Positions 6,835 through 31,414 of a stretch of 35,816 nucleotides of DNA are shown piece after piece. Every line of letters begins with the position of its first letter. Within the stretch, counting starts at the first letter, position 1. The position numbers and the translations under genes are program-made. The stretch comes from Chitinophaga pinensis (GTDB taxonomy: Bacteria > Bacteroidota > Bacteroidia > Chitinophagales > LD1), in the NCBI GenBank assembly GCA_945867505.1, contig CAMBIM010000007.1, positions 1 to 35,816 of the forward strand, read 5' to 3'. Below the pieces are notes generated by a model. The model did no database searches and had not been told where the DNA came from. It saw only the letters and a list, made by a program, of their open reading frames with translations.

Positions 6835-7647
6835 ATGAAAAAACTTTACTTCTTTATCACATCAGTGCTTTTTAGCATTCAAACAATTTTTGCAGCAGGC
6901 TGCACCATTGATTCTACTAACACACAATTTTTTTCTCCAAGGCCAGACAGTATTCCTTGTATTGAAAGAGGCGTGGCTTACACACAAATAATTCAAATTA
7001 ATATTCCTAGCTCAATTGATATAGGACCCTTTGTAGGTTTCCCTGCGGGCATAATTATTCTAACTGTTGACTCCATGCAAATTGATTCATTAACAGGTTT
7101 CCCAACAGGATTATTATACGAGCTAAATCCGGCATCTGGTCATTTTTTAGGTGGCGATAATGGATGTTCTCAAGTTTCTGGAACTACCAATGACCCCACA
7201 GGAAATTATCCATTGAGTGTTAATGGAACAATTTCAGTAAGTGGTATTCCCGGAGGCTTCGGCTTTCCACCAGATACTACCTTTGATTTAGCGCAAGCGC
7301 AAGGTATGTCGGGCATGTTTAACTTATCTGTAGATGTGATTAATACTGGAGATGTTTGTCGCCCAAGTACTAGTATTCGCGATTTTAATGCAGAGTTAAA
7401 TTCGCTTGTTCAGGTTTATCCAAACCCAAACAATGGAGTTTTTGATTTACGTTTAAATGCTGGCAGAAGAATAAATGGCGAAGTTGTAATTGTGGATGTT
7501 ACCGGAAGAAGCGTTTATTCGCAGCCGCTTGATGTGGTTGGTTTATACAATACGACTATCAATCTTTCGCAATTTGGCAAAGGGCTTTACACCGTTCAAA
7601 TTAGAACTTCAGAAGGCTTTGCATCAAAAAGCATTTCAATTGAATAA
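6835..7647 (+). CDS. T9SS type A sorting-domain secreted protein
   Basis: Signal peptide; C-terminal VYPNPNNGVFDLRL...GEVVIVDVTGRSVYSQ...GLYTVQIRTSEG. Confidence 0.85.
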   Translation: MKKLYFFITSVLFSIQTIFAAGCTIDSTNTQFFSPRPDSIPCIERGVAYTQIIQINIPSSIDIGPFVGFPAGIIILTVDSMQIDSLTGFPTGLLYELNPASGHFLGGDNGCSQVSGTTNDPTGNYPLSVNGTISVSGIPGGFGFPPDTTFDLAQAQGMSGMFNLSVDVINTGDVCRPSTSIRDFNAELNSLVQVYPNPNNGVFDLRLNAGRRINGEVVIVDVTGRSVYSQPLDVVGLYNTTINLSQFGKGLYTVQIRTSEGFASKSISIE

Positions 7648-23653: not shown

Positions 23654-24520
23654 ATGCGAAAATTATTGTTGCTATCTATCGTCCTTTCTTTTATAGCTGC
23701 TTGCAGCAAAACAGAAGATGTAAAAATTACCGGCAACGTTCCTCCGCCCGACCATACTATCGATTCTTCTACTATCAGCATTTACGTAAACAAAGCGTAT
23801 ATCAATTTGCTTGGTCGCGAGCCGGTAGGAAGCGAAAGAAGCGATGCGCTTACCATTTTGCGTCAGAATAATTTTTCGTTAGATAACCGTAAACAATTTG
23901 TAGCTACGCTTTTCTCAAGACAAGAATACACGCGCAATCTTTACAACGTTGCCAACAACGAATATTTGCGCAATCTTGATTCAATGGAGATTGAGCAACA
24001 ATTTTTTGTGTTCAACAATTTTTTGGGCATGCCACAATATGCTGCCTTTTTTGATGCTATTAATTTTGAGCTAGGCCGTCTGGATACGTTGAAAAGAACG
24101 CTTTCGAATATGTATGCGGGCTCAATGGATTACCGTGCTATGCTTTCGCGCATGACCAATAATTATTTCTACGACCAAATAAACATGGGTTCTGAAAATT
24201 TTGTGGTAAGCACGTATCAGAATTTTCTGTTCCGCTACCCAAGCGATGGCGAACTACTTGACGGTAAAATAATGGTAGATGGAAATACTGCTACTATATT
24301 TTTCAAACAAGGCAAATCGAAATACGATTACATAGATATTTTCTTCAAAACTGATGATTATTATGAAGGGCAGGTGCGTTTCATTTTCAAAAAATATTTG
24401 TTCCGCGAACCAAGTTCTGCCGAAATTTATTTGTATGCTAATCTCTACAAGAACACCAACGACTATAAGCAGTTGCAGAAAGAAGTTTTTTCCCTAGATG
24501 AATATGCGGGAATACAGTAA
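23654..24520 (+). CDS. Lipoprotein with repeated DUF4214/DUF1549-like helical motifs
   Basis: Lipobox LSFIAACSK; YVNKAYINLLGREPVGSERSDAL...LFSRQEY, VVSTYQNFLFRYPSDGEL...FFKTDDYY, VRFIFKKYLFREPSSAEI...VFSLDEY. Confidence 0.7.
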   Translation: MRKLLLLSIVLSFIAACSKTEDVKITGNVPPPDHTIDSSTISIYVNKAYINLLGREPVGSERSDALTILRQNNFSLDNRKQFVATLFSRQEYTRNLYNVANNEYLRNLDSMEIEQQFFVFNNFLGMPQYAAFFDAINFELGRLDTLKRTLSNMYAGSMDYRAMLSRMTNNYFYDQINMGSENFVVSTYQNFLFRYPSDGELLDGKIMVDGNTATIFFKQGKSKYDYIDIFFKTDDYYEGQVRFIFKKYLFREPSSAEIYLYANLYKNTNDYKQLQKEVFSLDEYAGIQ

Positions 24521-24564
24521 TCAGCAGCAGGAAGCAGTATATACAAAATGCAAAAACTAATAGC

Positions 24565-25095
24565 ATGAATCGCCCAACATCATTTCTGAATTTCCGAATT
24601 TCCGAATTTCCGAATTTGGCAATCGCGATAATCTTCGCAGTTCTAATATCTCAAACTTCTTGTAACAATGTGAAACGCTACATTTACCAAGTGCAGGAGC
24701 AGGAGTTGTATCAAACAGCTGCGCAAAAGCTAAATCTAAAAACAACCGACCAATTTATTTCTATTGCCTACTCGCATTTGTTCGGCATTTCTATTGCTAA
24801 TAATGAATTAGCAAAGTATAATGTTTCGCTGCAAGCCTTGGGCGACAAAACTACCATGCAGGATATGATTGTAAAAAGTATGATTAACCGTGGAGGAGTT
24901 CAATTGATTACCGATGCCAATATGCGCTCAGATATTCCAGCGTTTATAGAAAGCACGTATCTGCGTTTTTACAACCGCAAACCCAACGAATTTGAGCGTT
25001 GGAAAATGAAAGACTTGATTGAAAAGAATACAGATGCTACGCCTAAAATGATTTACTATTCTATGATGACTAGCGATGAATACCGCTATTATTAA
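24565..25095 (+). CDS. Lipoprotein with two DUF4214/DUF1549-like helical motifs
   Basis: Lipobox AVLISQTSCN; FISIAYSHLFGISIANNEL, FIESTYLRFYNRKPNEFERWK...MMTSDEYRYY. Confidence 0.65.
   Translation: MNRPTSFLNFRISEFPNLAIAIIFAVLISQTSCNNVKRYIYQVQEQELYQTAAQKLNLKTTDQFISIAYSHLFGISIANNELAKYNVSLQALGDKTTMQDMIVKSMINRGGVQLITDANMRSDIPAFIESTYLRFYNRKPNEFERWKMKDLIEKNTDATPKMIYYSMMTSDEYRYY
24585..24620 (+). repeat. Mini-repeat family F: GAATTTCC octamer array (3 exact + 1 variant)
   Basis: TCTGAATTTCCGAATTTCCGAATTTCCGAATTTGGC; encodes LNFRISEFPNLA in the signal-peptide n-region. Confidence 0.85.
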
Positions 25096-25140
25096 GCAAA
25101 ACGAATTGGCTGTTATATTAACATACTTAATACTCTTACA

Positions 25141-26433
25141 ATGAAACGCAAACAGTTTATAAAAAACGCAGCACTTACCGCAGCAGGCAGTATGGTGGTG
25201 CCTTATATTTTACCAAGCGGAAGATTGTTTGCTGCCACCGGTTCGCGAAGGGCAAACCATGTGGTGTTTTGCTTGTTTGCGGGCGGTGTTCGCAATTTAG
25301 AATCTATTCATAAAGCCGAGGGAAACTTAATGCGTAATATGTTGAATGGAACGGAAGCCATTAGTGCTGATATTGCTCCGGGCATTGTGCAATTGCCATC
25401 GCTTACTTCTACTCCGCTTCAAAACGCGGGTACACTTTTTAAAGAGTTCCGATACGCAAGTGGCCCAACCGGTCACTACAACGGTCATACTACCGCCATT
25501 ACAGGAAAGTATTCCGATGAATCTATTCAGCTAAAACAACCGCCAAAATATCCGACAATTTTCGAATACTACCGCAAGCATACTTCGCCAAATACTAGTG
25601 CGCTAAACGCTTGGTGGGTGAGTAACGCGCTTGGACCATATCCGTATTTGAACTACAGTATGTTCGATGGCTACGGAGCAAATTACGGTGCAAACATGAT
25701 TCAACCTTCGTCTATTTTTAATGGCTCGTCAGCTTCTGTTTTAGGAAATCCGCTTACGCTTTCGCAAACCGAAAAAAGCAAGTGCGATATGATGCGCGAT
25801 TTTATGAACGGTCAATTTAAAATTCCGCAGGCGGCTCTTTCATCTGGCATTGTAAATACTGTGGCAGATGCAGAACATTTGCAAACCTGGTTAAACACTA
25901 TGATTTACCAAGTAGCCAATGGGAATATCGAAAACCCATGGGGAACGGGGTTTATGACAGGTGATATGGTAAATGTTTATTTCGGCATCGAAGTAATGAA
26001 AGAATTTAAGCCCGAGTTAATGGTGATAAATATGACCGATGTGGATATTGCACACTTTGATTATACTCAGTATGCAAACGCTATTGGTGTGGCAGATTAT
26101 GCACTTTACAAATTGTGGGATGCTATTCAAACTACACCGGGCATGGCAAATGATACGGTATTGATAGTTGTACCGGAACATGGAAGAAACCAAGATGCAA
26201 ATAGTGTGATAGATGCTTACGGTCGTTACGCGCTTGACCATAACAACGACCAAATGAGCCGCGAAATTTTCTGCATGATGGCGGGTAAGGGTGTGAAACA
26301 AGGACAAGTATTTAGTCAGCAACAAGGCGAGAGTGTTGACGTGGTGCCTACCATTGCTAATATTTTGGGATTCGTTAATGAAATACCTTTCGGGGTTTTA
26401 GATGGAAGAGTTCTTTCAGAAGCGTTTGCATAA
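25141..26433 (+). CDS. DUF1501/alkaline-phosphatase-superfamily-like exported protein
   Basis: Tat-like leader KRKQFIKNAALTAAGSMVVPY; VVFCLFAGGVRNLES; SGPTGHYNGHTTAITGKYSD; NDTVLIVVPEHGRNQDAN. Confidence 0.65.
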   Translation: MKRKQFIKNAALTAAGSMVVPYILPSGRLFAATGSRRANHVVFCLFAGGVRNLESIHKAEGNLMRNMLNGTEAISADIAPGIVQLPSLTSTPLQNAGTLFKEFRYASGPTGHYNGHTTAITGKYSDESIQLKQPPKYPTIFEYYRKHTSPNTSALNAWWVSNALGPYPYLNYSMFDGYGANYGANMIQPSSIFNGSSASVLGNPLTLSQTEKSKCDMMRDFMNGQFKIPQAALSSGIVNTVADAEHLQTWLNTMIYQVANGNIENPWGTGFMTGDMVNVYFGIEVMKEFKPELMVINMTDVDIAHFDYTQYANAIGVADYALYKLWDAIQTTPGMANDTVLIVVPEHGRNQDANSVIDAYGRYALDHNNDQMSREIFCMMAGKGVKQGQVFSQQQGESVDVVPTIANILGFVNEIPFGVLDGRVLSEAFA

Positions 26434-26451
26434 TTTGAAATAAAAACTGAT

Positions 26452-27420
26452 ATGAAGATTACAAAAGTAAATCTCCTTTTATTGCCGGTTGTTATGCTTT
26501 CAGTTTTGCTCGCAATTCATTCGTGCAAAAAGCCGAACGATAATTTGCCGCCAAATCCTTACGATGATATTGACCGAGATGATACCACAACTTATGGTAT
26601 TCCGCTTGACTCACTTACTGTAACTTATGTCCATACAAAAGTGTTTGAAACGCGTTGCGCTTTGCCCGGTTGCCACGATGGGAATTTTGAGCCGGATTTC
26701 AGAACTCCGCAATCATCATTTTCTACCTTGGTTTATGCTTCTATCATTAAAAATAATACGGCAGCAAGTTTTAAATACAGAGTAATTCCTTTTGATACCA
26801 CTAACTCGGTTTTGTATGAGCGCATTACCAACTGTTGTTTTATAACACAAAATGATAGAATGCCGCAAGATGATATTGGAGTGGCGTTACCGGATTCGAG
26901 CATCAACTTAATTGCCTCTTGGATTATGCGCGGTGCGCGCGATATGTTTGGCAATGTAGCAAAACTGCCAAACAAAGAACCGACCATAAATTATTTTGTT
27001 GCGTTCGATACTCTTTCGCTTATACCTCCATTTGCTTTCCCAACTTTGCGATACGATACAGTGCGCATGGATGCTGTTTATTACAATCCGTTTATAGTGC
27101 CGTTGAACAAGAGCGCATTTTATTTTGCCGTTAACGTAACTGACGATAGCACTGCCGATGGCTCTATGTTGGTGAACAAATTGATAATTTCCACTAATGC
27201 CGATAACTTTAGTTCTGCTTCTCAATATACGGGTACGTATGTAAGCTATGGAGGTCTTTCAGTTTGGTTGGCTACGGTTCCCTTAAACAGTTTACCCGCA
27301 AGCGATACGCTATATATGCGCTATTACGTAAACGATGGCGACCATGCAGCTAACACAGAGTTTCCACGCACGGAAATGATATTTCCTTATAAAACTTTTT
27401 GGTCGTTTATCCGCCAATAA
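26452..27420 (+). CDS. Lipoprotein with CX4CH motif (cytochrome-like)
   Basis: Lipobox VLLAIHSCKKP; VFETRCALPGCHDGNFEPDFRTPQSSFSTLV; PQDDIGVALPDSSINLIASWIMRGA, typical layout of c-type-like lipoproteins. Confidence 0.65.
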   Translation: MKITKVNLLLLPVVMLSVLLAIHSCKKPNDNLPPNPYDDIDRDDTTTYGIPLDSLTVTYVHTKVFETRCALPGCHDGNFEPDFRTPQSSFSTLVYASIIKNNTAASFKYRVIPFDTTNSVLYERITNCCFITQNDRMPQDDIGVALPDSSINLIASWIMRGARDMFGNVAKLPNKEPTINYFVAFDTLSLIPPFAFPTLRYDTVRMDAVYYNPFIVPLNKSAFYFAVNVTDDSTADGSMLVNKLIISTNADNFSSASQYTGTYVSYGGLSVWLATVPLNSLPASDTLYMRYYVNDGDHAANTEFPRTEMIFPYKTFWSFIRQ

Positions 27421-27422
27421 AA

Positions 27423-27881
27423 ATGAAAGTCATGAAATTATTTAGTGCCAATATTTTAATTCTTGCTGGTATTTTGATTTGCTTTTCGGGGTGTAAAAAA
27501 GAAGAACCAATTTCAAAAGTGCCATCAATTAAGTTTCTTTCCATCACTCCAAACCCTGCTGTAAAATACCAGGATGAAATAAAAGTTACGATTGAATACA
27601 CTGATGGTGATGGCGATTTAGGAGAGAATATAGCAGACGCAAAAAATGCTTTTATTACTGATAGCCGCAACAATGTGATTTATGAATTCCGAATTGCGCG
27701 GCTTGCACCTGATAATGCGAACATTATCATCAACGGTCAGCTTATTGTCAATTTAGCTCCACAAGGGTTTATTGATGATAACAACATCACCGAAACTACT
27801 ACGTATTCCATTTACATAAAAGATAGAGCGGGCAACGCAAGTAACACCGTGCAAACTTCTTCTCTGACGATTAACAAATAG
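27423..27881 (+). CDS. Small lipoprotein, Ig-like/beta-sandwich type
   Basis: Lipobox ILICFSGCKKEE; IEYTDGDGDLGENIAD; TYSIYIKDRAGNASNTVQTS. Confidence 0.65.
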   Translation: MKVMKLFSANILILAGILICFSGCKKEEPISKVPSIKFLSITPNPAVKYQDEIKVTIEYTDGDGDLGENIADAKNAFITDSRNNVIYEFRIARLAPDNANIIINGQLIVNLAPQGFIDDNNITETTTYSIYIKDRAGNASNTVQTSSLTINK

Positions 27882-30157: not shown

Positions 30158-31414
30158 TTACTCTACCACCAACTTTCCACTCTTCAAAAATTCGTATGAA
30201 GAATTTTTTAGTTGATAGAAGTAAAGTCCGACAGCTAACTCATTCACTTTAATTTCTGATTTCAGATTTTGAATTTTAGTTTGAAACACAACCCTTCCAC
30301 TTACGTCCGTAATAGTGAAATTACTTCCTACTAAATCATTGCCGACTGCTAATTGCCAACTGCCAATTGAATTTGGATTCGGAAATACAGAAACTTGAAC
30401 ATCGTTCTTCAAATCACTAATTGCCGTTGCTGCGCTTGGTGTAATTTCTAAAATGCGAACAGGTGTTCCATCACTCCAATTGCTCATGCCGTGCTGCTCC
30501 GGTGTATCGCCAAAAGCATATTCGCAGTTCTGATTGTACAAAGCGCAATCCATTAGCGCATCCTGCAATTTCCATGTGCAGTAGTAATCAAAGGCATCTA
30601 CAGGTCCGTTGCCCGAAGCAAGAATGAATAAATTAGTTTCGCCATTATCAAAAGCTGCATCGCCAGCTAATGGGTCAAAGTGCGAAGCTGTTACCGCAGG
30701 AGAACCATGGTTATCTGCATAAGTATGCACCAAATTTTTGTGCGAAGTAGGCGCGTTTACCGATTGATTGTAAATAGTAGTTCCGGGCGCAGTGCCAACT
30801 ATAATATCATCATTGCTCACTAACGATAAATACGGAACATCGGAAGGGAAAGCAGAATAGTCAGGCATTAAAAAAGAAACCGCGCCTGGTTGCATAGAAA
30901 ATGCGCTTAGCGGTTTAGGCAAACCATATTGCTGATGCAGCATGGTCATGTTTGCCGTTAACAGACCACCCACAGAATGACCAAGAACAAAGAAATTTTG
31001 AATTCTGCCTTTCACATGCCCAGCTTTTTGGATAGTATCAAGTCCGCGTTTAATTCCGTGCGCGCAGCTGTCGTTAAATGTTGTGTTGCTTGTATTCAAA
31101 TCTTTTTGGTAGCGCGGGTAAATTACAATGTTGCCTTTGCGCACCAAGTGCTTGATAAACGCACCATAAAGTTTCGGATTGGTTTCGCCCAAACCATGAA
31201 TAAATACCACAACATTGGCAGAATCTGGTGTTGGTGAGTTCGGTTCATATAGCCAAAAATCGCCACCGCTTCCGTTTGTGCCGTAATCGTATTGAGTTAC
31301 ACCGCCAAAAGTATAATCGCTTCCACCTGGGCCGGATGATGGTTGGTTAGGTTGAGTTTGAGAAAATACTGAAAGCGAAAGAAGAACTGCGATAGGGAGT
31401 AGAAGTTGCTTCAT
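30158..31414 (-). CDS. Secreted alpha/beta-hydrolase-like protein with T9SS sorting domain
   Basis: NVVVFIHGLGETNP; FFVLGHSVGGLLTANM; C-terminal VSVFPNPNS...FTITDVSGRVVFQ...GLYFYQLKN. Confidence 0.82.
   Translation of the reverse strand: MKQLLLPIAVLLSLSVFSQTQPNQPSSGPGGSDYTFGGVTQYDYGTNGSGGDFWLYEPNSPTPDSANVVVFIHGLGETNPKLYGAFIKHLVRKGNIVIYPRYQKDLNTSNTTFNDSCAHGIKRGLDTIQKAGHVKGRIQNFFVLGHSVGGLLTANMTMLHQQYGLPKPLSAFSMQPGAVSFLMPDYSAFPSDVPYLSLVSNDDIIVGTAPGTTIYNQSVNAPTSHKNLVHTYADNHGSPAVTASHFDPLAGDAAFDNGETNLFILASGNGPVDAFDYYCTWKLQDALMDCALYNQNCEYAFGDTPEQHGMSNWSDGTPVRILEITPSAATAISDLKNDVQVSVFPNPNSIGSWQLAVGNDLVGSNFTITDVSGRVVFQTKIQNLKSEIKVNELAVGLYFYQLKNSSYEFLKSGKLVVE
30250..30283 (-). repeat. Mini-repeat family E (minus strand AAACTAAAATTCAAAATCTGAAATCAGAAATTAA)
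   Basis: Short-period degenerate repeat encoding TKIQNLKSEIK in the sorting domain; no second copy in window. Confidence 0.35.
30339..30370 (-). repeat. Mini-repeat family A (minus strand TCAATTGGCAGTTGGCAATTAGCAGTCGGCAA)
   Basis: Tandem TGGCARTT-type units; encodes SIGSWQLAVGN between PNPN and the sorting-domain core. Confidence 0.7.

Follow-up and report, generated by a model that had tools for sequence, protein, structure and literature searches.

A Five-gene Lipoprotein Module of Bacteroidia with Likeness to Known DUF1501 Systems

What kind of system is encoded by the five genes, g1 to g5, that lie at positions 23654-27881 of contig CAMBIM010000007.1 (assembly GCA_945867505.1), four of them for lipoproteins and one for a DUF1501-like protein? 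The contig, 35,816 nt long and hereafter called the window, comes from a genome of 2.94 Mb that is 74% complete. Planctomycetes, Verrucomicrobia, and some Proteobacteria encode in abundance proteins of the DUF1501 family and their partners (DUF1549/1553, PSCyt, and DUF1800), for which the papers we found name no function. One report (PMC4452313, citing Kamneva 2012) notes DUF1501 clusters in bacteria of the Planctomycetes-Verrucomicrobia-Chlamydiae (PVC) group without a function, PSCyt/PSD genes have been termed frequent and so far functionless (PMC5615132), and in some Proteobacteria DUF1800-DUF1501 pairs accompany the genes for chitin synthase (PMC5122149). Our literature search, outside which subscription journals mostly fell, returned no paper that mentions DUF1501 together with DUF1549 and no description of the g1-g5 block. 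The original prediction, made from the letters of the window alone, held that the parts of PSCyt1/DUF1549 plus DUF1501 systems are reduced here and split over separate lipoproteins, which at the level of sequence largely holds. The block is very probably a co-inherited envelope module of Bacteroidia, partly homologous to both the PSCyt1-DUF1549-DUF1553 plus DUF1501 and the DUF1800 plus DUF1501 systems, in which the large partner would have given way to two lipoproteins with repeats and a third, separate one that is PSCyt1-like.

Results

The five genes are genuine and belong to a single module. All of the predicted open reading frames (ORFs) exist and lie close together on the + strand, with intergenic gaps of 44, 45, 18, and 8 bp, and g1, g2, g4, and g5 each carry a lipobox. 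The gene-order comparison that had been proposed as a check extends the block far beyond the genus of the source organism: 12 of the 17 other genomes of the genus contain g3, each with the entire block, contig ends apart, and mostly with different flanks, and order and strand are kept in every one of the 53 loci in which all five genes were called (67 loci fetched), where the median intergenic gaps run from -14 to +12 bp. Profile searches detected g1 in 71 of the 299 genomes sampled from the order and g4 in 76 of the 295 sampled from the class, which places the module in about one-quarter of family-spread Bacteroidia genomes. A phylum-level search with g3 found it in 3 of 297 genomes (<2%), all three from the same class, in a sample of mainly near-complete, very low-contamination genomes drawn unlike the order and class lists; the module seems to be over-represented in lineages whose genomes are less complete and which are probably uncultured. 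Pairwise-distance matrices of g1 to g5 correlate with r = 0.69-0.85 (permutation maximum 0.17), as expected for co-inheritance, a correlation that by itself cannot tell functional from chromosomal linkage. This spread across Bacteroidia was absent from the original prediction, as was the clade with secreted cargo described below.

The DUF1501-like protein of the block is g3 (25141..26433, +), of 430 residues. Against the DUF1501 family (PF07394) the window protein scores 19.3 bits, below the gathering cut-off of 27, and the best family member reaches 3e-5; the window protein also gives a sub-threshold Metalloenzyme match, and other members match Phosphodiest and Sulfatase, which together place g3 in the alkaline-phosphatase superfamily. 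Profile comparison by hhalign, whose match probabilities are the percentages given here and below, aligned g3 over its full length with DUF1501 proteins from DUF1549 loci (92%) and from DUF1800 loci (91%). In a joint alignment of 58 module, 9 PSD-linked, and 14 DUF1800-linked sequences, residues His112, Asp302, Gly348, Arg349, Asp366, and His367 are common to all or nearly all sequences of the three sets, with single PSD-linked exceptions. His112 (25474..25476, +) is invariant in the module and in both comparison sets; the DUF1501 DxH motif is longer by one residue in the module, its His being shifted to give DxxH (D302-I-A-H305 in the window; 26044..26055, +); the EFGR motif reads E346-H-G-R349 (26176..26187, +), with Glu346 replaced by Asp in 4 of the 58 module sequences; and the DH motif is D366-H367 (26236..26241, +). 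The position of the Asp in the GGNDG motif differs between the sets, being Asp in the DUF1800-linked proteins, mostly Ser in the PSD-linked ones, and an invariant Arg51 in all 58 module proteins, where the residues Leu-Glu-Ser (LES) that follow are of the PSD-linked type. A search of PDB sequences with g3 gave weak or chance matches only (LtaS2, E = 0.089).

The leader of g3, KRKQFIK in the window, had been read as resembling a twin-arginine translocation (Tat) signal, a reading that the family bears out: among the sequences scored the key position holds RR in 50 and RK in 9, RK being the form in this genus including the window, and TatC is encoded in the window's genome. From what is known of the family, g3 would be exported by Tat and depend on metal.

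The CX4CH lipoprotein that had been predicted is g4 (26452..27420, +), a 322-residue protein with lipobox Cys25, a PSCyt1-like domain, and a C-terminal region of predicted β-strands. Neither the window protein nor its family matches any Pfam family, PSCyt1 included. By hhalign, however, the N-terminal half aligns at 97% (E 8.8e-11) with the PSCyt1 domain (PF07635) that starts PSD1 proteins, CX4CH falling on CXXCH, MP on MP, and WI..GA on WI..GA, and at 94.8% with the PSCyt part of neighboring membrane proteins; 9 of 55 g4 members also match TIGR03806, a c-type cytochrome family. The CX4CH motif (C69-A-L-P-G-C74-H75; 26656..26676, +), which takes the place of the CXXCH heme motif, is present in 64 of 65 g4 ORFs (the one that lacks it is shortened), and Cys69, Cys74, His75, and Met137 are invariant in all 55 members. 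Met137-Pro138 (26860..26865, +) aligns with the MPP of PSCyt1, making the methionine a candidate axial ligand. Cytochrome c assembly genes occur in 17 of 18 genomes of the genus, so that a covalently bound heme in g4 is conceivable; that g4 may be a cytochrome is suggested by motif and profile.

Two further lipoproteins contain helical units. The first, g1 (23654..24520, +), has 288 residues with lipobox Cys17, three units resembling DUF4214 and DUF1549, and an NMGxENFV motif: unit 1 (residues 38-100; 23765..23953, +) aligns with the start of DUF1549, unit 2 (residues 178-236; 24185..24361, +) carries the ENFV motif, and unit 3 (residues 238-288; 24365..24517, +) ends the protein. The second, g2 (24565..25095, +), has 176 residues with lipobox Cys33, a degenerate unit 1 (24748..24912, +), and a clear unit 2 (24934..25092, +). 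Comparison by hhalign of sub-profiles from class-wide alignments, with the non-repeat middle of g1 as control (≤1.3%), related the three g1 units to each other at 95.0-96.7% and g2 unit 2 to g1 units 2 and 3 at 95-96.5% (96.5% for unit 3), whereas g2 unit 1 reached only 64% against g1 unit 1. The three repeats predicted for g1 are therefore there, and of the two predicted for g2 one is clear and the other degenerate.

The kinship of these units to DUF4214 and DUF1549, which had been left for checking, finds sequence support of uneven strength. DUF4214 (PF13946) is matched by 30 of 59 g1 members (best 2.1e-10), the window protein itself staying at 15.9 bits, below the gathering cut-off of 23.2; PBS_linker, the phycobilisome linker family, is matched by 15, DUF1553 by 4, and DUF1549 (PF07583) by 2 at E<0.01 (best 3.5e-4). 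For the pooled g1/g2 unit, the beginning of DUF1549 (LTGLPP...SPAY) gives a match of 62.8% (E 7e-5; controls at or below 0.6%), and the C-terminal region of PSD1 proteins one of 30%. The best match of whole g1 is to DUF1800 (PF08811; 46.6%, E 2e-4), in which NENFARE aligns with NMGxENFV; unit 3 alone reaches 40%, and the Pfam scan of g1 members gave no DUF1800 match. Controls for these comparisons stayed at or below 0.7%. A search of PDB sequences with g1 returned weak or chance matches only (phycobilisome linker, ApcH, and protein A), the first of which agrees with the PBS_linker matches. A link of g1 and g2 to DUF1549 is suggestive, and the pattern suggests that one helical unit may be shared by DUF4214, DUF1549, DUF1553, and DUF1800.

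The last gene, g5 (27429..27881, +), encodes an Ig-like lipoprotein of about 150 residues with CKKEEP after the lipobox, in agreement with the small lipoprotein predicted; a start near 27429/27432 is more likely than the TTG at 27399, which overlaps g4.

Set beside known systems, the module most resembles the pair of PSCyt1-DUF1549-DUF1553 (PSD1) protein and DUF1501 protein of Planctomycetes and the PVC group, with which it has in common an exported DUF1501 partner, a domain like PSCyt1 and, to judge from a suggestive match, units like those of DUF1549. In contrast to the large fused PSD1 protein with its CXXCH, the module has three separate lipoproteins, CX4CH, and an additional Ig-like lipoprotein, and the DUF1553 core of PSD1 proteins was not detected in it. 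With the DUF1800 plus DUF1501 pair it shares the DUF1501 partner, and g1 gives a suggestive alignment with DUF1800, but DUF1800 is a single protein of about 500 residues without a cytochrome domain, and the module differs again in having Arg51 for the GGNDG Asp. DUF4214 resembles the module in the g1/g2 repeat unit. Taken together, the DUF1501 signature in g3, the PSCyt1-like g4, and the helical units of g1 and g2 describe what appears from the sequences to be a third layout of the theme of DUF1501 and helical partner, with or without PSCyt, split over four lipoproteins.

Two of these layouts coexist in the window's genome, which has DUF1800-DUF1501 pairs on contigs C107 (L157; two in tandem), C133 (L158), and C304 (L156). 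Rare Bacteroidia genomes (L188-L195) carry loci of the planctomycete type, PSCyt1-DUF1549-DUF1553 with DUF1501, most with a further membrane protein that has a CXXCH (PSCyt1-like) part. Comparing module and DUF1800 genes by eye in 41 genomes, we saw no clear pattern of mutual exclusion.

A connection to the cell surface emerged from the genes downstream of g5. In the g3 tree a single clade (100/100), sister to that of the window, contains every one of the 20 loci that have, next after g5, a gene for a protein of about 1,160-1,190 residues, a few being longer or shorter owing to the ORF call; L151, the lone unlabelled member of the clade, is cut by a contig end. CUB, PKD, and CHU_C domains were found in all three of these proteins scanned with Pfam, and both of those scanned with NCBIfam passed the cut-off of TIGR04131; sequence clustering and length served to assign the rest. 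They are type-B cargo of the type IX secretion system (T9SS), and at least three of the loci continue with a PorP/SprF protein that scores well above the TIGR03519 cut-off. Such cargo, sometimes with PorP/SprF, ties the module to the cell surface in this clade, although g1 to g5 are not themselves known T9SS components. Several genomes carry both versions of the module, the window's genome only the cargo-free one, and a search for cargo in the genus found mostly generic PKD/CHU_C tails.

The Tat-type leader of g3 and a signal resembling one for lipoprotein export also point to the cell surface. In the family consensus of each of the four lipoproteins, K-K-[E/D] follows the lipobox Cys, and the surface lipoprotein export signal of Capnocytophaga canimorsus is K-(D/E)2 (PMC5080379), a likeness that hints weakly at surface export; in the window g5 fits it well and g1 partly. 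Elsewhere in the window, type-A T9SS tails (Por_Secre_tail) end the proteins at 30158-31414 (-), which has a weak chlorophyllase-like hydrolase match, and at 6835-7647 (+), indicating that the host uses T9SS.

Discussion

How might such a module work? We envisage that the DUF1501 protein, taken to be metal-dependent, exits the cytoplasm in folded form via Tat, and that g1, g2, g4, and g5 travel to the outer membrane and probably in part to its outside, where the lipoproteins would form a scaffold that keeps the enzyme, along with a one-electron heme domain, in place against a polymer or protein that the cell secretes. Such a complex would then modify, attach, or process this surface client by phospho- or sulfo-type chemistry that is redox-gated or redox-coupled, the client in the sister clade being the co-encoded CUB/PKD type-B surface protein. 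As a whole this mechanism is possible but somewhat doubtful, and with the identity of the module it makes up a best explanation that we hold tentatively. Its most specific form, an outer-membrane accessory machine in which a Tat-exported DUF1501 enzyme and a CX4CH cytochrome lipoprotein modify or anchor dedicated type-B surface proteins, is distinctly improbable. If true, it would give a DUF1501 system its first assignable role. The compact, split version, tied to cargo in one clade, offers separable parts and a named client, which makes the DUF1501 question testable in Bacteroidota.

Several observations weigh against this mechanism. No T9SS type-B cargo follows g5 in the window, and none is linked to the window's own branch. 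A congener, G011, has CHU_C cargo like that of the sister clade, cut at the contig start (L218, G011:C82:1-8000), and no detectable module, which may reflect either an assembly gap or a stand-alone cargo. In the window, the residues behind the Cys of g2 (C-NNVKR) and of g4 (C-KKPND) depart from the export signal. With the invariant Arg51 in place of the GGNDG Asp, catalysis by g3 may be altered or lost, and we found no biochemistry for any DUF1501 protein in the literature searched. AlphaFold models were of low confidence, with a pLDDT (predicted local distance difference test) of 46.9 for g1 and 42.9 for g4 (six sequences each, shallow alignments).

Arg51 is also the starting point for reading the whole as a non-catalytic adhesion or anchoring complex, a surface scaffold with g3 as a pseudoenzyme and CX4CH as a structural or metal site, into which the repeat lipoproteins, the Ig-like g5, and the CUB/PKD cargo of the sister clade would fit. 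The remaining DUF1501 signature residues of g3 are nevertheless conserved, and the invariance of two Cys, a His, and a Met over 55 diverse g4 members goes beyond the needs of a scaffold, so that we consider this account rather unlikely. We give the same weight to surface redox chemistry or polysaccharide oxidation, in which the PSCyt1-like g4 would pass electrons while the DUF1501 protein strips substituents from an external sulfated or phosphorylated glycan bound by the lipoproteins. The PSCyt1 homology and c-type cytochrome matches of g4 speak for it, as do the Sulfatase matches of some g3 members and, in freshwater Verrucomicrobia, sulfatase genes often found near PSCyt genes, some of which bear carbohydrate-binding modules (PMC5615132). 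Clustering of neighboring genes, however, gave no recurrent carbohydrate-active enzyme, SusCD, or transporter family, and the commonest linked family is the type-B surface protein, which is no enzyme.

The genes for deoC, an SPOR protein, and an M20 peptidase, which lie downstream in the window on the same strand with small gaps, raise the further idea of a nucleoside or peptide salvage operon. This linkage is confined to the two closest congeners, and the others showed no deoC, SPOR, or M20 match in the fetched region, some contigs ending near g5; an operon of this kind is thus largely refuted and very improbable. In six class-level loci (L126, L128-L131, and L136) the module is also preceded by an M20-type dipeptidase gene, at a position unrelated to that of the window's downstream M20 gene. 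Just upstream of the block in the window is a gene for a neutral/alkaline ceramidase-like protein (PF04734; 21330-22811, +), which also precedes the module in one close relative (L021/L026).

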